Part shown: in pieces, positions 9,897 through 54,975 of the stretch
Layout of the letters: each line of letters starts with the position of its first letter
How positions within the stretch are numbered: position 1 is the stretch's first letter
Assembly: GCF_022014595.1 (NCBI RefSeq)
Contig: NZ_CP091740.1
Coordinates: 2,344,200 to 2,408,199, forward strand
Direction of reading: 5' to 3'
DNA length: 64,000 nt
From: Solitalea lacus
GTDB lineage: Bacteria; Bacteroidota; Bacteroidia; Sphingobacteriales; Sphingobacteriaceae
The notes under the pieces: generated by a model
What the model saw: only the letters and a program-made list of their open reading frames with translations
Databases searched by the model: none
What the model was told of the DNA's origin: nothing
Program-made: the position numbers and the translations under genes

Positions 9897-11480
9897 ATGA
9901 AAAAAATAGTATATACACTGGCTGTGTTATTAGCTGTGGGATCCACTGCTTGTAATAAGGCTGATTTTGAAGAGAGTTATGCTAATCCTTCAAAAGTTTC
10001 AACTTCTTCAGTTGAAAAGCAATTTGCAGGTTTTGTGGTAACCAATCGCGAATACGTATTACCTAGTTACTGGAATTATTTTGTAGTCTTAAGACCAACA
10101 CTTACACATTATACACAAGCAGTAGGTTGGGTTAACGCACCTAATCAATATGTTCCGGGAGCGGCAAGTATTGGTGATCGCTGGAATAACTACTATAATT
10201 TTTTGGCTCAATTTAGAGAGTTTCAAAATCTTTATAATAAGCAGTCTGCAAACGATCAAGCAGCTAAACGCATTTACATGATTGCTTCTACAATTTATTT
10301 CTATGATCATACCCAAAAAGTAGTTGATTTACATGGAGATATTCCATGGTCAGAAGCAGGAAGAATGAGCGCTAACGGGGGAAATTATAATCTTTCATTG
10401 CCTAAGTATGATAATGCTGAAACCATCTATACTAAAATGTTAGATGATTTAAAAGGCTTTGCAGAAGAATTGAATACTATCAACGTTTCTGCTGCTGTTC
10501 AAGCTGGTTTTAAAAATCAAGATTTGGTTAATAAAGGAGATTTAGTTCTTTGGAAAAAGTATTGTAATTCTTTACGCTTAAGACTACTTTCTAGAGTTTC
10601 GGATGTTGCATCTTTAAAAGCTAGAGCTGCATCAGAAATTGCAGCCATTTTAGCTAATTCTGCTACTTACCCTGTAATTGCAGATAATACACAAAACATT
10701 CAGATTAGTGTTAAAGATCTGAGTAGTCCTCTTAATTCAACAGGTTTCAAATCAGGTTTAGAAGATTGGAATGGTAATTTAGCTGGTAAAGCAATGATTA
10801 ATCATATGACAACTAACTCTGATCCTCGTTTGAGAGTTATGTTTGAGCCAGGTGCAAATGCAGGTGGGGTGTACACCGGTTTGGATCCAATGCTTAGTTC
10901 TTCAGCCCAAACTACCTTGGTTGATGGAGGTAAGATTGCCATCTATAATCGTTCTACACTAAGCCGTAATGAGTATTTCCCTGGTGTATTGATGAATGCT
11001 GCCGAAGTAAGCTTCATTGCTTGTGAAGCATACTTGAAAGCAGGTAATAATGCTGCTGCCAAAACTGCATACAATGATGGTATTGCTAAATCTATCAAAT
11101 TCTACTATGATTTGAGAGCACTTAGTAATAATAATGTAGCAGGTACTCTTACCCCAACTAATGATGCTGAAATTGCTGCTTATGCGGCTAAACCAGCAGT
11201 GAATTGGGACCTAGCCCTTACCGATAATGCTAAATTGCAATTAATTGCCACTCAAAAATGGATACATTATAGTGTTGTTCAACCGATTGAAAGCTGGTCT
11301 GAGATCAGACGATTGAATGGGCCAGTATTTAGTTTTGAAATGGATAACTCTAGCGCTCAAAAGCAACCTCCTTACAGATGGTTGTATGCAGCTAGTGAAC
11401 AAACTTACAATACTGAAAACTACTCAACTGTAAGAGCAAAAGATAATTTAACAACCAAAATTTTCTGGGACGTTAATTAA
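9897..11480 (+). CDS. SusD/RagB-family outer-membrane lipoprotein
   Basis: A 527-residue surface lipoprotein. The signal ends in a lipobox (GSTACNK) with Cys19, followed by acidic residues, which favours surface export in Bacteroidota. The body has the alpha-helical TPR-like pattern of SusD-like proteins (for example WKKYCNSLRLRLLSR and AEVSFIACEAYLKAG). It acts as a lid and binding subunit on the SusC barrel encoded just upstream. Closer to the SusD-like group 2 pattern than to starch SusD, by overall feel. Co-transcribed with susC and followed by two hairpins. Confidence 0.93.
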   Translation: MKKIVYTLAVLLAVGSTACNKADFEESYANPSKVSTSSVEKQFAGFVVTNREYVLPSYWNYFVVLRPTLTHYTQAVGWVNAPNQYVPGAASIGDRWNNYYNFLAQFREFQNLYNKQSANDQAAKRIYMIASTIYFYDHTQKVVDLHGDIPWSEAGRMSANGGNYNLSLPKYDNAETIYTKMLDDLKGFAEELNTINVSAAVQAGFKNQDLVNKGDLVLWKKYCNSLRLRLLSRVSDVASLKARAASEIAAILANSATYPVIADNTQNIQISVKDLSSPLNSTGFKSGLEDWNGNLAGKAMINHMTTNSDPRLRVMFEPGANAGGVYTGLDPMLSSSAQTTLVDGGKIAIYNRSTLSRNEYFPGVLMNAAEVSFIACEAYLKAGNNAAAKTAYNDGIAKSIKFYYDLRALSNNNVAGTLTPTNDAEIAAYAAKPAVNWDLALTDNAKLQLIATQKWIHYSVVQPIESWSEIRRLNGPVFSFEMDNSSAQKQPPYRWLYAASEQTYNTENYSTVRAKDNLTTKIFWDVN

Positions 11481-11518
11481 AATTGCGAAAAGCTTCACAA
11501 ACAATAATGGGTGTTAGT

Positions 11519-11542
11519 ATACCTCCATGAAAATGGAGGTAT
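11519..11542 (+). terminator. Hairpin with GAAA tetraloop after susD
   Basis: Ten-base perfect arms (ATACCTCCAT and its complement) close a GAAA tetraloop, a very stable GNRA-type loop. No T-run follows, so it may be an mRNA-stabilising or processing element rather than a classical terminator. Confidence 0.6.
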
Positions 11543-11562
11543 TGCTTGCTCAAAGATTTTAT

Positions 11563-11616
11563 TTTAAAACTAAGCTGGCTTGTAATATGTCAATTACAAG
11601 CCAGCTTAGTTTTAAA
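11563..11616 (+). terminator. Long 24-bp hairpin between susD and the GH3 gene
   Basis: Perfect 24-base arms (11563-11586 and 11593-11616) flank a 6-nt loop. The outer part is A/T-rich and ends in TTTTAAA. It likely ends or attenuates the susCD transcript before the GH3 gene. Confidence 0.75.
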
Positions 11617-11682
11617 TAAGAATTATTAGAACATATTAATTCATGTTATGATTCTTGAGGGATTAACTAATATTATTTTATA

Positions 11683-14379
11683 ATGAAATTTCTAAATGCA
11701 TTTATAATCAATAAAAAAAACATCTCCATTTTAATTGCATTCTCATTTATATCACTTTCCGGTTCTGCTCAAAGTCAATTTCCTTATAAGAATCCCAAGC
11801 TTTCCATTGATCAAAGAGTAAAAGACTTAATTTCCAGAATGACCGTTCAAGAGAAGTTTTGGCAATTATTTATGATTCCTGGTGATTTGGAGGAAGGAAA
11901 TGAAAAATATAAGGCGGGTATTTTTGGATTTCAGGTAAGTACCAAAGGTAATAGTGATGCCGCTGGGCAGTTATTAAGTTATAGTTCTTCAGCAACAGCA
12001 CTTGAAACAGCAAAAAAAATTAATTCTATTCAAAAATATTTTGTTGAAGAAACACGGTTAGGTATTCCAATTATAGCATTTGATGAAACATTGCATGGTT
12101 TGGTAAGGGAAGGAGCAACATCATTCCCTCAGTCTATTGCGCTTTCATCTACTTGGGATATAAAATTGATGGGGCAGGTGGCAACCGCCATTGCAAGAGA
12201 AACAAAAAGCCGAGGTATCAGGCAAATACTTTCACCTGTGGTTAATGTTGCTACTGATGTTCGCTGGGGGAGAGTGGAAGAGACTTATGGTGAAGATCCT
12301 TTTCTTTCGTCTGAGATGGGAGTAGCTTTTGTAACTCCGTTTGAAAAAATGGATGTAGTGACAACACCAAAGCATTTCTTAGCAAACAGTGGTGACGGAG
12401 GTCGTGATAGTTACCCAATTGATATTAATGAACGTTTATTGGAAGAAATTTATCTTCCTCCGTTTAAGGCTTGTTTCCAAAGAGGTGGTTCGCGTAGTGT
12501 GATGACTTCATATAACTCTTTAAACGGTAGTCCTTGCACTGCCAATAATTGGTTGTTAAATACCAAGCTAAAGCAACAAATGAATTTTAGTGGATTTATT
12601 ATTTCTGATGCTTCAGCGGTAGGAGGAGCCAATGTTTTACATTTTACGGCTAAAGATTATCCAGAAGCTTCAGCCAACGCAATAAATAATGGACTAGATG
12701 TAATATTTCAAACAGCATATGATCATTACCAATTATTTATTCCACCCTTTTTAGATGGTCGAATAAATGAGAAAATTATTGATGAAGCCGTAAAGAGAGT
12801 ATTGACTGTAAAGTTTCAATTAGGGCTTTTTGAACATCCATATGTCGATGAAAAGGAGGTTAGTAAATGGAATGGGAATCCACTTCACAAAGCTTTGTCA
12901 AAAGAAGCTGCATTGAAGTCTATTGTGTTGTTAAAAAATGAAAACAATCTTTTGCCATTACAAAAATCAACAAAGAAACTAGCTGTTATCGGCGTTGACG
13001 CAGTTGAAGCTCGGCTAGGAGGATATAGCGGTCCAGGTAATAGGAAAGTTAATATGCTTGACGGTATTAAAAATAAACTGGGAAAATCCGCTATGGTAAC
13101 TTATGCTCCGGGATGTGGACGTTCGTCGGTTGAATGGGTTACAATACCTTCTGAAAATTTATCAGTAACTGTAAACGGGAAAAAGGAAAATGGTTTGTTG
13201 GGGGAATATTTTAATAACGTTAACATGACTGGTAAACCTGCTGTTACACGAATTGATAAGGAAATGAACTTCAGATGGACGTTGTATTCCCCACATCCTG
13301 ATATTAATTATGATTTCTATTCTGTTAAATGGACAGGTAAATTAAAAGCTCCTGCTTCAGGTAAATTTAAAATTGGCCTAGATGGTAATGATGGCTATCG
13401 TCTTTATCTTAACGGAAAATTAGTAATAGATAATTGGAAAAATCAATCTTATCACACTCAATTAGTTGATTATTATTTTGAAGAAGGAAAAGAGTATGAT
13501 ATTAAGGTGGATTTTTTTGAGTCTTCAGGCTCTGTCTGGTTTAAACTTGTTTGGAATGTTGGCGTTGACAATGATTGGCAAAAGAAAATTGATGATGCAG
13601 TAACTGTAGCTAAAAACGCTGAAGCATCAGTTGTTGTCGTAGGTATTGAAGAAGGAGAATCTCTTGACAGAGCTTATTTAAGTTTACCTGGTCACCAGGA
13701 AGAAATGATAAATCAAATTGCTGCTACAGGAAAACCAGTCGCGGTGGTTTTAGTTGGTGGTAGTGCCATAACAATGACAAAATGGATTAATAATGTATCC
13801 TCTGTTATTGATGCATGGTATCCTGGTGAAGAAGGTGGAAATGCCATCGCGGATGTTTTATTTGGTGATTACAATCCTGCAGGACGTTTACCTATAACGT
13901 TTCCTATTGAGGAGGCCCAATTACCGTTAGTGTATAACCATAAGCCAACAGGTCGGACTGATGATTATCTAAACCTTACTGGGCAACCTCTTTTTCCATT
14001 TGGTTATGGGTTAAGTTATACCAAGTTTGAATATGGAAATTTAAAGTTTGATACAAAGAATATAGCTAAAGGCGAATCAACAAAAGTTCACTGTACCATT
14101 AAAAATATAGGATCACAAGCAGGTGATGAAGTAGTTCAATTATACGTTCGTGATTTGATCTCTTCAGTTGCGCGTCCAATAAAAGAATTAAAAGGATTTC
14201 AACGTATTTATCTAAAACCTGGCGAAGAAAAAGAGGTTTCATTTCAAATTACACCTGATTTATTGAAAATGCTAAATGAACATATGCAATGGGTAGTTGA
14301 ACCCGGTGAGTTTAGAATTATGATTGGGGCCTCTTCAAAAGATATTAGGTTAAGAGATGTCATTACAGTTGTTAAGTAA
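11683..14379 (+). CDS. GH3-family beta-glycosidase with inserted PA14 domain
   Basis: An 898-residue exported enzyme (signal peptide cut near residue 30 after SGSA). The GH3 N-terminal barrel covers about 35-390, with KHFLANSGDGG and the nucleophile segment GFIISDASA. The GH3 C-terminal domain is interrupted by a PA14 domain at about 503-625 (GLLGEYFNN start; NDGYRLYLNG inside). A fibronectin III-like domain closes the protein (GDEVVQLYVRD). Family members hydrolyse terminal beta-glucose, xylose or GlcNAc; PA14 inserts often shape the active-site rim. Its substrate here is unclear: an N-glycan locus does not obviously need a beta-glucosidase. Preceded by the two hairpins after susD, so it may have its own promoter. 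Confidence 0.9.
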   Translation: MKFLNAFIINKKNISILIAFSFISLSGSAQSQFPYKNPKLSIDQRVKDLISRMTVQEKFWQLFMIPGDLEEGNEKYKAGIFGFQVSTKGNSDAAGQLLSYSSSATALETAKKINSIQKYFVEETRLGIPIIAFDETLHGLVREGATSFPQSIALSSTWDIKLMGQVATAIARETKSRGIRQILSPVVNVATDVRWGRVEETYGEDPFLSSEMGVAFVTPFEKMDVVTTPKHFLANSGDGGRDSYPIDINERLLEEIYLPPFKACFQRGGSRSVMTSYNSLNGSPCTANNWLLNTKLKQQMNFSGFIISDASAVGGANVLHFTAKDYPEASANAINNGLDVIFQTAYDHYQLFIPPFLDGRINEKIIDEAVKRVLTVKFQLGLFEHPYVDEKEVSKWNGNPLHKALSKEAALKSIVLLKNENNLLPLQKSTKKLAVIGVDAVEARLGGYSGPGNRKVNMLDGIKNKLGKSAMVTYAPGCGRSSVEWVTIPSENLSVTVNGKKENGLLGEYFNNVNMTGKPAVTRIDKEMNFRWTLYSPHPDINYDFYSVKWTGKLKAPASGKFKIGLDGNDGYRLYLNGKLVIDNWKNQSYHTQLVDYYFEEGKEYDIKVDFFESSGSVWFKLVWNVGVDNDWQKKIDDAVTVAKNAEASVVVVGIEEGESLDRAYLSLPGHQEEMINQIAATGKPVAVVLVGGSAITMTKWINNVSSVIDAWYPGEEGGNAIADVLFGDYNPAGRLPITFPIEEAQLPLVYNHKPTGRTDDYLNLTGQPLFPFGYGLSYTKFEYGNLKFDTKNIAKGESTKVHCTIKNIGSQAGDEVVQLYVRDLISSVARPIKELKGFQRIYLKPGEEKEVSFQITPDLLKMLNEHMQWVVEPGEFRIMIGASSKDIRLRDVITVVK

Positions 14380-14568
14380 ACTGAATTGATTCTAATGAAA
14401 ATGAACTCTTAGTCAATTAAATATACACACTTGATAATGTTTTTATTTGTTCATGTGTTAAAATAGCTTATTAATTAGGCAATCTGACAAAATTTATATT
14501 GGTCAATTCAACTTTCTTTGTAATAGTCAATTACTTAGAAAAAATGATTTAATCTTATTTAAAAATAT

Positions 14569-16038
14569 ATGAAGAAAAGTATACTGAGAATAGTGCTTTT
14601 GGCAATATTGATTTTGGCATCATCGAGTTCATTTGCTCAGGAAAAAGAATTTCCTTACAAATGGCCGGCTGATCCGTTAGTGAATAAAAACTTAAAGCAA
14701 TGGCAGGATTGGAAGTTTGGAGTTATCATTCATTGGGGGCCATATAGTCAGTGGGGTGTAGTAGAAAGTTGGAGCCTTTGCCCTGAAGATGAGGATTGGT
14801 GTATTCGTAGGGGGCCTCATGCTCAAAGTTATGAGGAATATAAAAAGGCTTATGAGAATATCCGGACAGTTTTCAATCCTGTTCAGTTTAATCCCCAAAA
14901 ATGGGCTGCTGCAGCAAAAAATGCCGGGATGAAATATGTGGTTTTTACCACAAAGCATCATGATGGTTTTTGCATGTACGACTCTAAATATACAGATTAT
15001 AAGATAACCGATAAGGGAAGTGTATTTAGTAAGAACCCTAAAAGCAACATTGCCAAAGAAGTATTTACTGCATTCAGAAATCAGGGATTAGGAGTAGGTG
15101 CTTATTTCTCAAAACCCGATTGGCATAGTGAAAACTATTGGTGGCCATACTTCCCTCCATTAGATCGTAATGTGAATTATGATCCTGCAAAATATCCTGA
15201 TCGATGGAAAAATTTCCAGCAATATACCTACAATCAGCTAGAAGAATTGACTTTGGATTATGGCAAATTGGATATTCTTTGGTTGGATGGGGGACAGGTG
15301 CGTCCTGCTGAATCATTAACAGAAGAAACAAAAGCTTGGTTAGGAAAAAAGCGCTGGATTCAAGATGTTAATATGAAGCGTATTGCTGAAATGGCTCGTA
15401 AAAATCAGCCGGGAATATTAATGGTCGACAGAACAGTTCATGGAGATTTTGAAAACTACCGTACACCAGAACAACAAATTCCGACTATCGTTCCAGCTTA
15501 TCCTTGGGAAAGTTGCATCACTTTGGGAGACAGTTGGTACAGCACCGGGCCTAATGAGCGATACAAATCAGTTAACTGGGCCATTCACACTTTAATTGAA
15601 ATAGTTGCTAAGGGCGGCAATCTATTATTGGGTGTTGGACCTGACAAATCAGGAGATTTAGTGCCAGAAGTTTATGAACGTTTAAAAGGTATAGGTGCAT
15701 GGATGGAAATCAATAATGAGGGTATTTATGCTACAGAGCCAATTAGTCCTTATCAAGTTGATAAATGGAGATTCACAAAAAGTAAGCAGAATAACTATGC
15801 ATATGCATTTTATTTAGCAGATGAAAAAGAATCGACAATTCCTACAGAAATCAACTTGCCTGCTATACAACCTTCTAATAATAGTGCAATCCATTTGTTA
15901 GGATATGATAAGCCTTTGAAATGGAAAAAGGGAACAAAAGGTACTTTGATTACAGTACCTACACAGGCAATTGCCAAACTTAAAGGACAACCGGCCTGGA
16001 CATTCCGAGTTACCGTTAATGCAACAAAACAGAACTAA
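14569..16038 (+). CDS. Alpha-L-fucosidase, GH29 family (second copy)
   Basis: A 489-residue protein with a signal peptide (to SSSSFA, about residue 23). GH29 marks are IIHWGPYSQWG, TKHHDGFCMY, the nucleophile segment ILWLDGG and KGGNLLLGVGP. It is clearly different in sequence from the fucosidase at 3630, so the two may split linkages, for example core alpha-1,6 versus antennary alpha-1,2/1,3. Only 6 nt separate its stop from the PNGase F-like gene, which strongly suggests one transcript and joint action on fucosylated N-glycans. Linkage assignment is inference. Confidence 0.92.
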   Translation: MKKSILRIVLLAILILASSSSFAQEKEFPYKWPADPLVNKNLKQWQDWKFGVIIHWGPYSQWGVVESWSLCPEDEDWCIRRGPHAQSYEEYKKAYENIRTVFNPVQFNPQKWAAAAKNAGMKYVVFTTKHHDGFCMYDSKYTDYKITDKGSVFSKNPKSNIAKEVFTAFRNQGLGVGAYFSKPDWHSENYWWPYFPPLDRNVNYDPAKYPDRWKNFQQYTYNQLEELTLDYGKLDILWLDGGQVRPAESLTEETKAWLGKKRWIQDVNMKRIAEMARKNQPGILMVDRTVHGDFENYRTPEQQIPTIVPAYPWESCITLGDSWYSTGPNERYKSVNWAIHTLIEIVAKGGNLLLGVGPDKSGDLVPEVYERLKGIGAWMEINNEGIYATEPISPYQVDKWRFTKSKQNNYAYAFYLADEKESTIPTEINLPAIQPSNNSAIHLLGYDKPLKWKKGTKGTLITVPTQAIAKLKGQPAWTFRVTVNATKQN

Positions 16039-31340: not shown

Positions 31341-31413
31341 GCCGATTTAGCTCAGCAGGTAGAGCGTCTCATTCGTAACGAGAAGGTCGCAGGTTCGAAA
31401 CCCGTAATCGGCT
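31341..31413 (+). tRNA. tRNA-Thr, anticodon CGT
   Basis: A 73-nt cloverleaf: 7-bp acceptor stem (GCCGATT with AATCGGC), D arm GCTC/GAGC, anticodon loop TTCGTAA giving CGT (reads ACG), T loop TTCGAAA, discriminator T. CCA is not encoded. Two stems carry an A.C mismatch: TCTCA/CGAGA in the anticodon arm and GCAGG/CCCGT in the T arm. The last base coincides with the stop codon of the convergent barrel-protein gene. Confidence 0.93.
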
Positions 31414-32552
31414 CAAAAAGCTTCATTTAAAGAAATGTAAAAACCGGAAGATCGTTTTTCTCCCATGTTTTTATTTCCAACACCGTAATCAAACCTTAGG
31501 GTCATACGCGAGTGCGGTTCAAACATGTACCTAAAACCTCCGCCATAATTGGGTTTGAAATCATTAAAACTAAAATCACCGTTATCAAATACTAAGCCTG
31601 TTCCAATAAATCCGGCAAAGCTCAAACGTGATAACGAAAACCAACCATGGTCTTTTTGTTTCCCCCATGGTCTATATCGAAACTCTCCCTGGGTGGCAAG
31701 CATGTTTTTATCTCGAAATCTACCCGTATAATATCCGCGTAAGATCTGATCTCCACCAATATATGGCAAATAATAAAATGGAGCTTCATCTCCTTGGGTG
31801 GTTTGATAAACTAAATGAAAGCCTAAAACTTTGGTTTTATCCAAGCTAATGAGATGTCTTGCATCTAAATTAATCATGCTAAAATGGTATCCGCTAACAC
31901 CCAAACTTGTCCATCCAACTAGCTGTAAAAAGCTCCCTTGAGTCGTTGAGTTTTCATAGTTTCTATCATCATAAGCGCCACCAATGCCAATTGACATACT
32001 TGTACCTCCTTGTTTACCATTGAAATCTCCAGTAGTAAATATTCCTGTCGTATCATCGGGTTTGTAAGTATCATCCTGAAGCCAAAGCCCGATACCTCCA
32101 TACAGATTTTTACGAAGCTTATGTTTAGCCATACCAGTAAACTTATACCTTGTTGACACAATTAGGTCTTCATCGCTTTGCTTTGTGTCGTTTCCAATTC
32201 CGTAGAAAAAAAATGGAAAGTCAGTATAACTAGCAAAACTATTAATATTCAACTTGTTTAGTTTTGTCCAAATACTACCCTGCAAAATTATTTGTGTCTG
32301 TTTTTTAGCAGTCCACATGTTAAAACTGTAAGCATAAGAATTACGTGTGGTAGTTGGATCAGGGGCTAGAAAAAAGGTATATATGACGCCTACCCCGTAT
32401 TGAAATCCTGTTTCTGGTGCGTTGCCAATAACCGGAAAAGGAACCAATTGATTTTTGGGTTTTCCAATACTATCAACTTGTTGAGAAAATGCTGGCCCAA
32501 CAAGCATGCTAAAAAATAAACAATGAAAGCAAGCTTGATAAATGTGTCTCAT
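31413..32552 (-). CDS. BamA/TamA-family surface-antigen-like outer-membrane protein (no POTRA)
   Basis: A 379-residue exported protein (signal ends at AFSQ). It has the Omp85/D15 barrel style: repeated amphipathic strands, the L6-type motif LRGYYTGRFRD (equivalent of VRGF) near residue 270, and a terminal aromatic (NEAF). No POTRA repeats are present, since the barrel begins soon after the signal. It is probably a 16-strand barrel, possibly linked to lipid or protein export. Its stop codon (TGA at 31413-31415 on the minus strand) overlaps the tRNA end by one base. Confidence 0.85.
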   Translation of the reverse strand: MRHIYQACFHCLFFSMLVGPAFSQQVDSIGKPKNQLVPFPVIGNAPETGFQYGVGVIYTFFLAPDPTTTRNSYAYSFNMWTAKKQTQIILQGSIWTKLNKLNINSFASYTDFPFFFYGIGNDTKQSDEDLIVSTRYKFTGMAKHKLRKNLYGGIGLWLQDDTYKPDDTTGIFTTGDFNGKQGGTSMSIGIGGAYDDRNYENSTTQGSFLQLVGWTSLGVSGYHFSMINLDARHLISLDKTKVLGFHLVYQTTQGDEAPFYYLPYIGGDQILRGYYTGRFRDKNMLATQGEFRYRPWGKQKDHGWFSLSRLSFAGFIGTGLVFDNGDFSFNDFKPNYGGGFRYMFEPHSRMTLRFDYGVGNKNMGEKRSSGFYISLNEAF

Positions 32553-32612: not shown

Positions 32613-33098
32613 TTACCTTGTTAGTATACTCTCTTGTCTAATTTTTTTCTGCAGTTCTATAATGCCGCCTATTAATGCTTCCGGACGTGGAGGGCAACCT
32701 TGAACATATACATCAACAGGGATAATGCGGTCAACGCCTTTTACCACGTGATATCCATGCTCCCAATAGGGCCCGCCACAATTTGAACATGAGCCCATTG
32801 AAATTACATAACGTGGTTCCGGCATTTGTTCATAGAGGCGCTTTATTCGCTCGGCCATTTTAAAAGTTACCGTTCCGGCAACTATCATAACATCGGCTTG
32901 GCGTGGAGAGGGACGGGGAAAAACCCCTAAGCGATCCAAATCATAATTGGCAGCCATCGAACCCATCATTTCAATAGCGCAACAAGCTAAACCAAAACTA
33001 ACTGGCCATAGCGAAGACAAACGAGCCCAATTAAGCAAATCATCGAGCTTGGTTATAACAACACCATTACTTTCAACCTTATTTATTAATTGTTCCAT
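32613..33098 (-). CDS. nuoB: NADH-quinone oxidoreductase subunit B
   Basis: A 161-residue subunit of respiratory complex I that carries cluster N2. The cluster ligands are the tandem Cys in CCAIEMM, the Cys in [11 protein letters not shown] and the Cys in GCPPRPEA. It is 17 nt downstream of nuoA. The usual nuoC, nuoD and later genes do not follow; the next gene is a barrel protein. So nuoAB stand alone here, and the rest of the complex must be elsewhere. Confidence 0.96.
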
Positions 33099-33115: not shown

Positions 33116-34387
33116 TTATTCTTTGGGTTGATCTTCAGTTTTATTAATTAAAGCTGCTTTAAAGCGAGGTTTGTACCCTGTGGCAGGTTTAACTTCATTT
33201 TGTTTTTCTTCCTTTTCGGCAATTTCTGAAGAAAGATCTTTCTTTATTTTTGGTAAATCATCCTTAGTTGAGGTGGTTGAATCAGAAGCATCATTTTCCG
33301 CTGCTTTTATTACAAGCTGTGGTTTAAATTTGGGTTTATATGGTGCCGCATTTACAACTTCTTCATTGTTTGCCGAAGATTCATCCTTTGCATTGGTACT
33401 ACTTTCCCTATTTTCTTCAGTTTGTTCTTTTTTTAATAACTGAGGCTTGAACTTGGGTTTATAAGCAACTTTCTCCTTTTCAGTTTCATTAGTCGCCATT
33501 TCATTATCGGTATTACCTTGTTCATTGGTTACTTCATCAGGTTCTTTAGCAACAACTCTTGGTTTAAATTTAGGTGTATAAGCAGGCTTAGCTTCAACAT
33601 TAGCAGATTGCCCATCATTTGAAGTGTTGGTGTCTTCTACTGATTTCTTTGCCAGTTGTGGTTTAAATTTAGGTTTGTACGCTTCTTTTTCCTCTATTGG
33701 TGAATCTTTAAATTCACTTATAAGATTCAAATTTTCAGTTTCATTGTTTGCTGACGTAGCTGTTTTAGGTTTGAATTTAGGTTTATAGGAACCTATGCCA
33801 TTTTCTGAAGATTCTGCTACAGTAGCTTCCTTTGCCTGTTTTTCTTCTACAGCCAGTTTGTTCAGTACATTTTCTTCCGTATCAATTAAATTCCACTTAA
33901 AAGGTTTTACCTTGTAAGCTTGGTTGTTTATATTTTGATATAGTTGTATGGGTACTTTTGACTCAACAACAGGGATGATGGGTTCAGGTTTAATCCATTC
34001 CAAGTCTCCTTTTTTCCATACATAAACCAATCCAACCAATAAAATGGCAATAAAAATAGCCATTTCAAAAAAGCTTAGCCAACCCCATGCCGGTACTGCA
34101 GCTATTAATTCTTTATTTCCGAATACTGTAGCCCATGGAAAGAGGAATATCATTTCAACATCAAAAAGCAAAAACACCAGTGCTATAACATAAAATCGCA
34201 TATTAAATTGTATCCACGAATTCCCTGTTGGGTTTTCGCCACATTCGTAAGTAGTTAACTTTTCCGGATTAGGTTTATTAGGACTTATTAACTTTGACAT
34301 GAAAAGAGTCACCAAAACGAATCCTGTTCCTAAAAGTAGGAATAGTAAAATCGAACCGAATGCTGATATTTGTGTGCTTTGATGCAT
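33116..34387 (-). CDS. nuoA: NADH-quinone oxidoreductase subunit A with long repetitive C-terminal extension
   Basis: A 423-residue protein. Residues 1-132 are an ordinary NuoA: three hydrophobic helices (about 10-31, 64-86, 104-124), YECGENP loop near 47 and [10 protein letters not shown]. NuoA is usually about 120-180 residues, so some 290 residues are extra. The tail is hydrophilic and likely disordered, and holds six copies of a YKPKFKP-type motif at about residues 201, 237, 270, 309, 350 and 405, separated by acidic Ser/Thr/Asn-rich linkers. The frame is continuous with no sign of sequencing error. A -7 box sits 4 nt before the ATG. Role of the tail is unknown. Confidence 0.92.
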
Positions 34388-34523: not shown

Positions 34524-35747
34524 ATGTCGGTAAATTCGACTTTAATTTATAACAACCTTGATGCCGTTATTTTGGGAGCAGGGGCTTGCGGATTGATGTG
34601 TGCCGTACAAGCAGGATATTTAGGAAAAAAGGTGCTAGTTCTGGAGAAAAATGCAAAAGTTGGCGCAAAAATTTTAATATCAGGAGGAGGAAGGTGTAAT
34701 TACACTAACTTGTATGCCTCAAATCAAAATTTTATTTCTGAAAATGAACATTTTAGTAAATCGGCCTTTGCGCAATGGACTGTTCAGGATACAATTGGTT
34801 TCTTTGAAACATATGGCATTTATGGACAGGAGAAAACATTAGGTCAATTATTTCCAACTACCAATAATGCGCGAGATGTTGTAAAAGTATTTACCGATTT
34901 ATGTGCTGATTTTGGTCAGGATATTTTATGCAATGCAGAAGTGCAAAGTATTAATCGCAATGAATCTGGGTTTATTGTTGAATTTAAAGACCTTATAACT
35001 AACCGAATTCATTTTCTTAATGCACCAAAGGTAGTTGTGGCTACTGGTGGATTACCAATTCCCAAAATGGGAGCTACTGATTTTGCGCTAAGACTGGCCC
35101 GCCAGTTTGATGTAAAACTTACTTCCACTGCACCTGCCTTAGTTCCTCTTACTGTTACAGGAAAAGATCATGAATGGTATCAGCAACTTTCCGGTACAAG
35201 TATATTTAGCAGAGTATCTAACGATAAAATAAGTTTTGAAGAAAATATTTTGTTTACCCATTGGGGGCTAAGCGGTCCAGCAATCCTTCAAATTTCATCT
35301 TATTGGCGTGCAGGGGAACGAATTAATATTGACTTGTTGCCAAGTGCCAACATCCTTGAATTACTTGATGAAGAACGCTTACTTTCTGGTAAGAAACTTT
35401 TGGCTTCTTTTCTTGAAAAATACTATTCTCGGAAGTTTGTTGAGGCAATGAAAAAATATTTGCCTATTGAAAAAAATCTTGCTTCCTTATCTAAAAATGA
35501 TCTTTCTTTAGTTGAACAACTGATTCATAATTTTACAATTAAACCTGCTGGTGACAAGGGTTATGATAAAGCGGAAGTGATGCGGGGAGGAATTGACACT
35601 GCCGAGCTTTCATCAAAAACACTTGAATGCAAAAAAGTTGAAGGCTTGTTTTTTGGGGGTGAGTGTATAGATGTAACTGGTTGGTTAGGAGGGTATAATT
35701 TTCAGTGGGCATGGGCTTCGGGTTATGTTATTGCACAAAATATTTAA
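34524..35747 (+). CDS. HI0933/BaiN-like FAD-dependent oxidoreductase
   Basis: A 407-residue flavoprotein of the HI0933 (YhiN/BaiN) family. The FAD dinucleotide motif GAGACGLMCAVQAG is near residue 17. SGGGRCNYTN is the family mark near residue 50. VATGGLPIPKMG comes mid-protein, and GGECIDVTGWLGGYNFQWAWASGYV lies at the C-terminus as expected for FAD ribityl contacts. Members are flavin reductases of uncertain physiological substrate. The TatD gene starts 15 nt later, so they are probably co-transcribed with TcdA after it. Confidence 0.92.
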   Translation: MSVNSTLIYNNLDAVILGAGACGLMCAVQAGYLGKKVLVLEKNAKVGAKILISGGGRCNYTNLYASNQNFISENEHFSKSAFAQWTVQDTIGFFETYGIYGQEKTLGQLFPTTNNARDVVKVFTDLCADFGQDILCNAEVQSINRNESGFIVEFKDLITNRIHFLNAPKVVVATGGLPIPKMGATDFALRLARQFDVKLTSTAPALVPLTVTGKDHEWYQQLSGTSIFSRVSNDKISFEENILFTHWGLSGPAILQISSYWRAGERINIDLLPSANILELLDEERLLSGKKLLASFLEKYYSRKFVEAMKKYLPIEKNLASLSKNDLSLVEQLIHNFTIKPAGDKGYDKAEVMRGGIDTAELSSKTLECKKVEGLFFGGECIDVTGWLGGYNFQWAWASGYVIAQNI

Positions 35748-44395: not shown

Positions 44396-45151
44396 CTATT
44401 CTGAAGTTTCAAAGATTGATTTTCTGTTCTGCATGCGGTAGCTCTGGCCTCCGAGCTGGATGATCTCACAACGGTAAAGTAAGCGGTCCAAGAGTGCTGT
44501 AGTGATCACTTCATCACCCAATACTTCCACCCATTGTTTAGGCGATTTATTGGTGGTAATCACAAAAGATGTCTTTTCATGCAGAGCATTTATGAAGTGG
44601 AAGAAAGCGTTCGCTTCGACTTTGGTTTCGGAAATGATCATGATGTCATCAATCACAATGAGCTGCGCTTTTGATAACCGCCTGTACTCTGCTTTAGCCA
44701 GGGTGGAGATGTCTTTATTCCTTAACATGGTCATGAGCTGTTCCATCGTTCTGAAATAAGCCCGGTACCCATTTTTAAGGGCATGATGACATAATCCGGC
44801 CGAGAGAAAAGTTTTCCCGGTTCCACTTGGCCCCATTAGGATGATGTTATAGTTTTGATCCAGCCAGCTCAGTTCTTTGAGCTGCTCCAGGCGCACTTTA
44901 GGTAAGCTTTCAGCTGACGTACTGTCATAAAGTTCGAGTTGATGGCGGGAAGGCAATTTCGCTGCTTTTTCCCTTCGTTCCATATCGCGCAGCTTTCTGT
45001 TATCTAGTTCCAACTCAAGCAGCTTCCTGGCAAATTCCAGGTAGCTGATTCCCTCGACAGCGGCACGGTCTGCCAGCTGTTCTACGCCCGGAGTTACTGC
45101 GCCCAGGCGCAGTAACTGACATTGTTTTTTAATGGTTTCTATCGTATTCAT
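44396..45151 (-). CDS. istB: IS21-family helper ATPase IstB
   Basis: A 251-residue AAA+ ATPase related to DnaC. Walker A is GPSGTGKTFLS near residue 107, and Walker B is LIVIDDIMI. The sensor region TTNKSPKQW follows. IstB stimulates transposition by IstA and steers target choice. It starts 6 nt after istA ends, the normal istAB order. Intact length. Confidence 0.95.
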   Translation of the reverse strand: MNTIETIKKQCQLLRLGAVTPGVEQLADRAAVEGISYLEFARKLLELELDNRKLRDMERREKAAKLPSRHQLELYDSTSAESLPKVRLEQLKELSWLDQNYNIILMGPSGTGKTFLSAGLCHHALKNGYRAYFRTMEQLMTMLRNKDISTLAKAEYRRLSKAQLIVIDDIMIISETKVEANAFFHFINALHEKTSFVITTNKSPKQWVEVLGDEVITTALLDRLLYRCEIIQLGGQSYRMQNRKSIFETSE

Positions 45152-45157
45152 TGCTTA

Positions 45158-46717
45158 TTAGGGTTTATTGTTAAAAAGGGATTCATACAGGTTGATGTCG
45201 CTGGAAGCTGGCCTGGTTTCTGCTTTTTGCAAATGGGATGGATCCAACAGCTTGATGATCGCTTGTGGTGCAGCCATGTCCGCAGAAGACTTAGCATGTT
45301 TTTTTAGTACCTGTTTAAACGTGCCGGCATCAAAAAATGCATTACCCATGCATTCTTCTATGGCTGATTCTATAGTTGCCGGATTGGTTTCTCTTACCGC
45401 ATCACGAATCGATAAAAGCTGATCACGGACGTACCGCGGCTTGAGTTCTTTTACTTTTAACAGGTAGCGCTCCGCTTTATCTGTATCTGGAAACAGTGCC
45501 GCAGTTTGGATGATTAGCTCACTAATTTTACCCGACTTGTCCCGCTTATGATCTGTATTTATAATCAGGTTGCCTTTGTTAAACGGCACCTTATGCCTGC
45601 AAAGCAGCTCTTCATTCGGACTGTAAACCTGTAGCATATCATCATCCAGACGAAGCTTCACATAATTTGCCTTTTTGCCAGTATAGGTTCCCAAGGGAAG
45701 TGAATAGGTATTCCCACAATAATTGAAGGTGTTGTTTTTCAGTACACTGCTCATCAGCCAGTCCGGCAGCAGGCTTACAGGTGCCCAGCTGGAAAGATGC
45801 GGTTTTTCGATCTGCCATTCCTTTTCCGGGACTTTTCCTGTGGCACCATGAACCATTGCATTGCCGGTCCGCGCCAGCCAGGATATGGCCTGTAACTGCA
45901 GGGTTTGGATATCATGGTAAACTCTGCCATACAGAAAGTTCTTTTTGATATAGCCGATAACATTCTCAATCTTCCCCTTGCTTTCAGGATCACTTTTCCG
46001 GCAAAAATACAACCGGTAATCCCGCTCCGTTACATAGGTCTTAAACTCCCTGGTCAAAAGCAGGTTCCCCAGGTTTTCATCGACTAGAAACAACCGGTCC
46101 TGATCATAAACCAGTTCCAGGGGAATACCCTCAAAGAATTTGAAAGCGGCTTCATGGGCCTCTACTGCTGTTTTGGTGGTAAAGGAACGGTCGGAAAAGT
46201 AAACAAACTTGTATCGGCTGCGCGATAGCACCATACTGAAGAAATACACTTTTTTTCTGCCCTGGTCGCACCTGAGGGTATACTGACCAAAATCAACCTG
46301 GCCTTGAGCCCCATAAGGTAGTTCTTCAACAGGAAAATAATCCCTGAGTTTAGGCTCCTGTAGAATGTGGTATTTTTGCCGTACCCAAATCACGAAGTTA
46401 TATACGGTGCGAGAGCCAGTCTGGGGGAAATCAGGGTGGTGTTCTTTTAACCAGTCATGCAGTTGAGCGGCACTGGCAGAGGGAACCTGCAGCAGTTTCT
46501 CCTTTACAAAGGATTCATAGGGTGTTAGCAGCTTACGACGCTCCTCCTTCTGGCACAGGAAGGCCTCGTACTCCTGTTCGTTCATTTCTGCATATTTCCT
46601 GATCGTCCTGCGGTCCAGGCCGGTGAAGGTAGAAATCTGCCTGAGGGAAGATCCCTCGATTAGCATTTTGTGAATTTGGTGATACATGATCCAGTTAGTA
46701 ATGGTTTTTTTATCCAT
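45158..46717 (-). CDS. istA: IS21-family transposase IstA
   Basis: A 519-residue transposase. An N-terminal helix-turn-helix (GSSLRQISTFTGLDRRTIRKY) comes first. The DDE core has GQVDFGQYTLRC for the first Asp, LVYDQDRLFL for the second and SDPESKGKIENVIGYIKKNF for the Glu. It binds the repeated ends and catalyses cut and join. No frameshift is seen. Confidence 0.95.
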   Translation of the reverse strand: MDKKTITNWIMYHQIHKMLIEGSSLRQISTFTGLDRRTIRKYAEMNEQEYEAFLCQKEERRKLLTPYESFVKEKLLQVPSASAAQLHDWLKEHHPDFPQTGSRTVYNFVIWVRQKYHILQEPKLRDYFPVEELPYGAQGQVDFGQYTLRCDQGRKKVYFFSMVLSRSRYKFVYFSDRSFTTKTAVEAHEAAFKFFEGIPLELVYDQDRLFLVDENLGNLLLTREFKTYVTERDYRLYFCRKSDPESKGKIENVIGYIKKNFLYGRVYHDIQTLQLQAISWLARTGNAMVHGATGKVPEKEWQIEKPHLSSWAPVSLLPDWLMSSVLKNNTFNYCGNTYSLPLGTYTGKKANYVKLRLDDDMLQVYSPNEELLCRHKVPFNKGNLIINTDHKRDKSGKISELIIQTAALFPDTDKAERYLLKVKELKPRYVRDQLLSIRDAVRETNPATIESAIEECMGNAFFDAGTFKQVLKKHAKSSADMAAPQAIIKLLDPSHLQKAETRPASSDINLYESLFNNKP

Positions 46718-53566: not shown

Positions 53567-54975
53567 CACAACTATCCGAAAGTCCAAAATTAAAAAAGGC
53601 GAAAAAAGTCCAAATTTGAGGTGACCAAACTTCAAAAGATGAGCCTTTTTCGCCGCACCAAAAATAATGATAAACCTTTAATCCGCCAGATAATTGATTT
53701 AATTCCTCGTTATCTACTGAATCAATCCATTAAGAAATATCATAGTGATAAATACTGCCATAAATACAAGACTTACGACCATTTAGTCGCGCTTTTGTTC
53801 GGACAGCTGTGTAAATGCAGCACTTTGGAGGATATTTCGGTGGGCATCGGAGTATCCGAAACCTTCATTAAAGACCTCGGATTGCAGCAAAGCCCCGCCA
53901 AAAGCACCATGAGCGATGGAAATAAAAAACGCAACTGGCAAGTGTTTGACCATCTTTATACGGCCCTGTTGAAGCATTACGGCAGCAGCCTGAGTAAATA
54001 CTCCAATCAGCAAATTGTGGAGGAAGTCAAAGACAAAACCCTGTTGATTCGAGATAGCAGCACGATTAGCGTTTGTTTAAGCATGTTTGACTGGGCAAAG
54101 TTTCGGACAGCTAAAGGAGGTCTTAAAATCCACACCCAATGGGATGAAAGCATGATGTTGCCCAACCTGGTCAACATCAGCCAGGCCCAAACGCATGACA
54201 GCAAAGGTTTCGAACAAACTATCTTTCCAAAGGATACCATCATCCTGGAAGACAAGGGCTATTGGGATTATGAGGTAATCCTGGCCAGCATAAAAGCTCA
54301 AAACACCTTTGTCACCCGCATAAAGGACAATACGGTATATGAAGTGATCGAAGAACTGGAGCTGCCTGAGCAGGAAGACCAACACATACTAAAGGACGAA
54401 TTGATTCATTTAACCGGCACGAAAGCAAAAGCCAACAGGCTATCGCTAGAGATTCTGCGAAGAGTGGTGGTGTTTGATCAGGAAAACAATCTGCAGCTGG
54501 AAATCATCACCAATAATACTACCTGGAAGGCTGCCACCATTGCCGCCCTTTACAAACGCCGCTGGGATATTGAAATATTTTTCAAACAACTCAAACAAAA
54601 CCTGAATGTTAAAACATTCATCGGCACGAGTGAAAACGCCGTTAAATCGCAAATCTTTGTAGCCCTGATCACCTACCTGCTGTTGGAACTGCTCAGAAGA
54701 GTGAAAGCCAAAGGCAGAACCGCCTTTTCCAACTTTGTAGAGAAAATCCGTATCTGCCTGTGCTATTACCTGACCCTTGATTATGTGATTGAACGAATAC
54801 AGCCCCTCGTCCGAAGTATCCGTCCGGTACAGGCTACCATGAAAAATGAACGGGAGCATACGCTTTTTGCCACCTGATTCCCTACTTGTTTTCTGCCGTT
54901 TTCATAGCAAAACCCCTGTATTCATTCGCTAAGCCCTTAAATTTAGACGAAATGGAAAAAGTTCGGATGAGTGTG
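53567..54975 (+). mobile_element. IS4-family insertion sequence, complete
   Basis: About 1.4 kb. The ends are CACA...ATCCGAA on the left and its mirror (inverted) on the right, with partial matching between. A 9-bp duplication AAAAATTAT occurs at 53558-53566 and 54976-54984. A single intact transposase gene fills it. It is GC-richer than the host. It inserted between the divergent trpS and plsC genes and broke no coding sequence. Confidence 0.85.
53621..54877 (+). CDS. IS4-family DDE transposase
   Basis: A 418-residue transposase with an N-terminal DUF4372-like domain (FRRTKNNDKPLIRQIIDLIP to about residue 75). The DDE core has the first Asp in LLIRDSSTIS, the second in IILEDKGYWDYEV, and the Glu in RRWDIEIFFKQLKQN (YREK-like region). 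The start may be GTG at 53621 or ATG at 53639. Intact, so potentially active. Several antisense frames inside it are shadows. Confidence 0.93.
   Translation: MTKLQKMSLFRRTKNNDKPLIRQIIDLIPRYLLNQSIKKYHSDKYCHKYKTYDHLVALLFGQLCKCSTLEDISVGIGVSETFIKDLGLQQSPAKSTMSDGNKKRNWQVFDHLYTALLKHYGSSLSKYSNQQIVEEVKDKTLLIRDSSTISVCLSMFDWAKFRTAKGGLKIHTQWDESMMLPNLVNISQAQTHDSKGFEQTIFPKDTIILEDKGYWDYEVILASIKAQNTFVTRIKDNTVYEVIEELELPEQEDQHILKDELIHLTGTKAKANRLSLEILRRVVVFDQENNLQLEIITNNTTWKAATIAALYKRRWDIEIFFKQLKQNLNVKTFIGTSENAVKSQIFVALITYLLLELLRRVKAKGRTAFSNFVEKIRICLCYYLTLDYVIERIQPLVRSIRPVQATMKNEREHTLFAT

Follow-up and report, generated by a model that had tools for sequence, protein, structure and literature searches.

A motif-repeat tail on the NuoA of a scattered complex I in Solitalea, a candidate docking tether

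The window, a 64-kb stretch of the Solitalea lacus genome, holds a nuoA gene whose product continues far beyond the end of an otherwise ordinary NuoA, into a tail carrying six copies of a short basic motif. The features of the locus are as follows.

33116..34387 (-): nuoA (423 residues), belonging to the third complex I, the scattered one (open reading frame and Pfam)
33995..34387 (-): NuoA core, residues 1-131, with three modelled membrane helices (9-34, 63-89, 100-125), the YECGE loop and a WKKGDLEW end
33119..33994 (-): complete C-terminal tail, 292 residues (132-423), following the conserved WKKGDLEW
33893..33994 (-): juxtamembrane element, residues 132-165, KPxxxPxxxxxxPxxxYxxxNNxxYxVxxF, common to most family rows
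33767..33787 (-): motif copy 1, YKPKFKP, residues 201-207
33659..33679 (-): motif copy 2, YKPKFKP, residues 237-243
33560..33580 (-): motif copy 3, YTPKFKP, residues 270-276
33443..33463 (-): motif copy 4, YKPKFKP, residues 309-315
33320..33340 (-): motif copy 5, YKPKFKP, residues 350-356
33155..33175 (-): motif copy 6, YKPRFKA, residues 405-411
32613..33098 (-): nuoB, 161 residues, immediately downstream of nuoA (open reading frame and Pfam)

The first 131 residues match an ordinary NuoA/ND3 (PF00507) in their three modelled helices, YECGE loop and adjacent nuoB. Oxidored_q4 (Pfam PF00507) covers residues 25-131 with 126.6 bits (cut-off 23.3), the NCBIfam NuoA models match with scores under their curated cut-offs, and the loop residues Y47, E48, C49, G50 and E51 are invariant across the 19 aligned rows of alignment A1 (the sequences of A1 and of the 17-sequence alignment A2 were chosen from the window and the 28 NuoA frames of L015-L042). 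Unlike an ordinary NuoA, the protein of the window carries a 292-residue tail; we regard its core as ordinary, and both the tail and the way in which it arose as unusual. Core and tail share one reading frame, and 17 bases separate the end of the tail from the nuoB start; a frameshift or run-on origin was rejected, as all four Solitalea genomes share this anatomy, with nuoB next. These lengths bear out the original prediction of a normal NuoA of about 130 residues followed by a tail of about 290 residues with six motifs, in both coordinates and counts.

The motifs, four YKPKFKP with one YTPKFKP and one YKPRFKA, are composed and spaced as had been predicted: the six matches to Y[KT]P[KR]FK start at tail positions 70, 106, 139, 178, 219 and 274 (spacings 36, 33, 39, 41 and 55), with the anticipated acidic linkers at a net charge of -2 to -7 and the motif stretches at +4 to +5. 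When the tail was shuffled 20000 times, 19997 shuffles held no such motif, three held one and none held more, against the six observed. Across the four Solitalea tails, the net charge is +2 to +5 in the motif stretches, most of which hold two aromatics, and negative in the linkers. All four species have R as the fourth letter of the last motif (YKPRFK or YKPRFS); this R-bearing copy may be the ancestral terminal motif. Tandem Repeats Finder returned 0 rows for a DNA tandem array in the window tail, which indicates that only the protein motif has been kept. Searches of the four Solitalea genomes with the tail at E<=10, a setting in which low-complexity sequence limits sensitivity, recovered only these nuoA genes and no second tail-bearing protein that might be a partner. 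Two further matches were taken as chance: a motif match at 3.93 Mb on the strand opposite a 592-residue open reading frame, presumably that of an acyl-CoA ligase (2 hits in the backwards-read control versus 5), and a triosephosphate isomerase (E 0.038), the sole match in a search for solved-structure relatives of the tail.

Codon comparisons among the motif copies of each gene suggest that the repeats have a history of constraint. Motif codons gave pS of 0.52-0.81 and pN of 0.088-0.174, with pN/pS of 0.12, 0.21, 0.22 and 0.24 in the four genes, values that are partly built in, since the recognition pattern fixes P, F and K/R and the linkers are aligned by offset only. On the same non-independent copy comparisons, pN/pS was 1.15, 1.22, 1.28 and 1.13 for linker codons 14-20 past the motif start, 0.35-0.93 for the seven codons immediately downstream of the motif and 0.82-0.94 immediately upstream. 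Judging from this sequence comparison, in which motif codons differ mostly synonymously, translation of the tail and selection on its motif are both probable. The turnover of synonymous sites also indicates that the copies are not simply young, with the exception of S. longa (G003), in which four units are identical around the motif.

We sampled 151 genomes of the family, and the counts given here rest on the 112 that matched the tailed NuoA at E<=1e-30, all of whose tails (112 of 112) could be extracted by BLAST-anchored reading; L015 (S. agri) and L016 (S. longa) duplicate the contigs of G001 and G003 and lie outside the 112 and inside A1. The four Solitalea genomes examined have tails of 292, 338, 421 and 304 residues with 6, 6, 8 and 6 motifs by a relaxed pattern; the second of them (G001) also bears a degenerate seventh copy in which E replaces Y. 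In the remaining 108 genomes the NuoA tail is 35-92 residues long. A single [FY][^DE]P[^DE]F[^DE] occurs in 90 of these 108 tails, its start 7-15 residues before the C-terminus and a median of 55 residues past the core, and no tail of the 108 contains two; by shuffling, the chance of a motif within the last 22 residues is 0.5%. In the motif logo, F/Y, P and F are set by the search pattern, which leaves the remaining positions as the informative ones. The 18 tails outside the pattern, sorted by eye, comprise seven near variants one or two letters off (FKPKLK, FRPRILKK, LRPQFK, FKLRIK and the like), eight basic ends of the form R[RK]xP[FI], one part-deleted end and two motif-less tails (part of the motif is lost in L125, and it is missing altogether from L123 and L210). 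A NuoA tree built on the core and the first 32 tail residues, and midpoint-rooted only, unites the multi-copy rows in a single clade (100/98), next to which stands a group of ten rows with no motif. From the family distribution and this Solitalea clade, the single terminal motif is likely, though not proven, to be the older form, and the copy number appears to have changed from one to many. The motif is thus not the sporadic expansion of one strain that had been raised as a possible refutation. An older terminal motif seems to have been multiplied later, a point missing from the original prediction.

Among the matches listed, the order-level search only re-sampled the same family. A class-level sample (247 genomes, 155 with a matching NuoA at E<=1e-15) yielded 15 fetched relatives from outside the family, and the motif was absent from all 15, as from the Prevotella NuoAs and other outside-family relatives fetched: nine have the juxtamembrane element only, three stop at the core and three end in KAPI[RK]RKPIIKK. 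For the other class-level NuoAs among the matches listed, most frame lengths, which count residues ahead of the start as well, give no sign of a long tail. The motif is also absent from L042, a Bacteroidetes contig with nuoA-B-C-D-H-I-J-K-L and no E-G. Judging from this contig and the 15 outside relatives, the motif does not seem to be needed by the NuoEFG-less type of complex I. The KAPI[RK]RKPIIKK ends belong to L253-L255 (f40, outside the family) and may be a distant form of the motif or the same idea.

An AlphaFold2 single-chain model of NuoA was poor overall (mean pLDDT 53.9). Within the modelled tail, a short helix at residues 147-155 (block means 75-77) and a helix at 172-185 are followed, beyond about residue 186, by a stretch with no secondary structure, where block means are 38-58 past residue 190, and on this model the tail is predicted to be disordered. 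In the general three-helix topology of NuoA, the YECG loop that links helix 1 to helix 2 is turned towards the peripheral arm. Because the third helix brings the C-terminus to the side that this loop faces, the tail would, by analogy, lie on the cytosolic side.

The genome (4.40 Mb, a single contig) encodes 3 NuoA, 3 NuoD, 3 NuoH and 2 NuoF, the last three in equal counts across all four Solitalea genomes. Set 1 (L073, at 202 kb) runs from A to L within the stretch read, with an untailed NuoA and a NuoF, and set 2 (L074, at 3.87 Mb) has A, B, a fused CD, E, F and G within the stretch read, again with an untailed NuoA; these other two NuoAs have 124 and 139 residues and no such tail. Set 3 is scattered, with an isolated nuoAB in the window (no further nuo gene was recognised in the open reading frame list of the 64 kb), nuoCD at 2.789 Mb and nuoH-N at 1.625 Mb. 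It encodes all 11 subunits: A and B in the window, C, D, H-J and L-N on L109 and L110, and K on L110, with D and H assigned by Pfam and C, I, J and L-N recognised by sequence and order. In the stretches read around nuoAB, nuoCD and nuoH-N we recognised no neighbouring NuoE, NuoF or NuoG, and both NuoF sit in full clusters. Since both NuoF and the untailed NuoAs belong to sets 1 and 2, and nuoAB, nuoCD and nuoH-N lie apart from them, the tailed NuoA is a member of the scattered set 3, which has no NuoF of its own. Neither this membership nor the lack of a tail on the genome's other two NuoAs was part of the original prediction.

The same arrangement recurs in the family. In all six of G018, G110, G052, G077, G065 and G107, the sole NuoF and an untailed NuoA (123-133 residues) share a set-1 cluster and the tailed NuoA lies elsewhere; in G038, G084 and G108 (completeness 99, 87 and 100) a tailed NuoA is present and NuoF was not found. 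Set 3 may borrow NuoEFG from set 1 or 2. The nuoCD genes at 2.789 Mb adjoin genes that, by their sequences, look pdxH-, yqgE-, purK- and purE-like, and nuoAB, purKE and nuoCD are still joined in G108, L020 and L041, which suggests that Solitalea split an older cluster. Among side observations on these clusters, set 1 has a short NuoG of 319 residues, in which Pfam recognises iron-sulphur domains alone; within 11033-11863 and 13667-14575, L074 has two small open reading frames without a Pfam family above its cut-off between nuoB and the fused nuoCD and one, hydrolase-like by eye, between nuoCD and nuoE; and upstream of nuoH-N, positions 1280-7014 of L110 hold only short, unconvincing open reading frames and are perhaps an rRNA operon.

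In gene content, set 3 resembles the 11-subunit, NuoEFG-less complex I of B. fragilis (PMC7002350) and Desulfitobacterium (PMC11238625), which, in the available parts of those papers, likewise comprises A-D and H-N and lacks its own NuoF; it differs in being spread over three places and in having a tailed NuoA. Among the entries listed from larger result sets, the open-access literature held no description of a NuoA with such a tail, in agreement with the original prediction, which knew of no described complex I subunit of this form, and a YKPKFKP-type string occurred only in an unrelated nanofluid text.

We tentatively propose, with confidence just short of even, that the tail of NuoA is translated and serves as a disordered tether in the cytosol, and that the linear docking motif it carries was multiplied in Solitalea. 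The tail would be a flexible tether on the NuoA of the NuoEFG-less set (AB / CD / HIJKLMN), and its working unit would be a linear motif for docking, a short sequence close to [FY][KR]P[KRT]F[KR][KP]. Most of the family would carry one unit at the very C-terminus, about 55 residues past the core; in Solitalea, 6-8 copies separated by acidic spacers would form a multivalent docking line, keeping a soluble or peripheral partner close to the electron-input side of the complex. Docking by the motif is suggested by analogy, because a conserved short motif on a disordered tether, found on a single subunit and retaining its residues from copy to copy, has the usual anatomy of linear docking motifs. 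The original prediction that the motif arrays could bind a partner, membrane lipids or another complex is supported in part: the basic and acidic pattern recurs in all four Solitalea genomes, looks selected and fits binding.

As partner, we favour an electron-input-side protein over lipid, or else the complex's own peripheral arm. A partner at the electron input is attractive because the set lacks NuoEFG, because the electron donor of the corresponding B. fragilis NUO is given as unknown in the part of PMC7002350 available, and because Moparthi and Hagerhall, cited in the available part of PMC11238625, proposed that the 11-subunit complex I serves several donors as a platform for docking. From the same parts of these two papers, the electron feed of NuoEFG-less complex I is an open question in print. 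In a more specific version of the docking proposal, which we think doubtful, the tail would be a recruitment arm of the NuoEFG-less complex I of Sphingobacteriaceae on which each [FY]KPxFK binds an electron-input protein or module replacing NuoEFG, with the arm multivalent in Solitalea and several donors held on one proton pump. Ferredoxin reduced by 2-oxoacid oxidoreductases is disfavoured as the donor, because POR_N (2-oxoacid:ferredoxin oxidoreductase) was found in 0 of the 4 Solitalea genomes; it was found in 35 of the 151 family genomes, 23 of them above cut-off. Whatever the partner, a conserved motif that was found on one subunit only and is naturally amplified 6-8-fold offers a ready bait for a partner pull-down in soil and water bacteria that can be cultured. 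The tail is also an example of a core complex I membrane subunit lengthened by a repeat array.

The alternative that survives best, although we consider it unlikely, is an internal brace, in which the tail would climb its own peripheral arm (NuoB, C, D and I) and the terminal motif would clamp it, replacing contacts of NuoEFG or supernumerary subunits, with the Solitalea copies merely raising local concentration. The precedent lies in E. coli, where, according to the available part of PMC8357420, ordered, extended and lineage-specific C-terminal tails of 22-45 residues on NuoB, NuoI and NuoF line and stabilise the peripheral arm. The Solitalea tail is likewise a lineage-specific C-terminal extension with little secondary structure, but it is repeated, modelled as disordered and borne by the membrane subunit NuoA, whereas the E. 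coli tails are ordered and borne by peripheral subunits. A lone terminal motif, a median of 55 residues past the core in the 90 single-copy tails, would fit one site per complex; one site, however, leaves 6-8 copies, each keeping the motif, unexplained. For set 3, the window genome encodes NuoB, C and D proteins of 161, 166 and 393 residues, nearly the sizes in the single-copy G108 (160, 165 and 393), so that no matching length change is seen there. A single copy fits either a brace or recruitment, and 6-8 copies fit recruitment or clustering better.

It is improbable, in our view, that the terminal motif alone matters and that the inner Solitalea copies are tolerated duplications of the terminal segment. 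The four alike units of S. longa and the species-variable copy number are signs of ongoing expansion, as such drift would predict, but in the window species the linkers have diverged, no DNA tandem repeat was detected and the inner motifs are kept (pS 0.75, pN 0.088).

Still less probable is that the basic motifs catch an acidic one-electron carrier, ferredoxin or flavodoxin, in the manner of the NdhI/NdhH/NdhV/NdhO surfaces of cyanobacterial NDH-1. Like set 3, cyanobacterial and chloroplast NDH-1 lacks the NADH module, and ferredoxin-dependent NDH-1 chains are the first solved hits of the family NuoA profile and of set-3 NuoD and NuoH; NuoI also matches such chains, right behind its first hits. 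Those first hits, however, are formylmethanofuran dehydrogenase polyferredoxins, NuoB is nearer to mitochondrial chains, NuoD favours its first hit by a tiny margin and a chloroplast chain is the first hit of the untailed set-1 NuoA too, so that nearness to NDH-1 is weak evidence. In the available part of PMC7021789, the NDH-1 ferredoxin sits in a highly positive pocket, which would suit basic motifs, but it does so on folded subunits and with no repeat tail. That POR_N was found in none of the four Solitalea genomes also speaks against this reading.

Least probable of all is an anchor to the membrane or another anionic surface, with YKPKFKP binding acidic lipids and the tail lying flat on the inner membrane: the positive, mostly two-aromatic motif stretches between negative linkers in the four Solitalea tails would suit it, but NuoA is already embedded in the membrane, and the kept prolines and the order F/Y-x-P-x-F-K exceed what an anchor needs (P and F being fixed by the pattern, though).

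The surroundings of nuoAB in the window offer some further observations. On the side after nuoB, positions 31413-32552 (-) encode a 379-residue open reading frame without a Pfam match and outer-membrane-like by eye; it adjoins nuoB in all four Solitalea genomes and occupies the place that purK takes after nuoB in most of the relatives listed. On the other side, an HI0933-like flavoprotein gene at 34524-35747 (+) is divergent from nuoA, and a like neighbour is kept in L017 and L041, which suggests that Solitalea rearranged mainly the side after nuoB. Farther along the window lie an IS21-type istAB pair (IstB_IS21, rve) at 44396-46717 (-) and a DDE transposase with DUF4372 at 53621-54877 (+).
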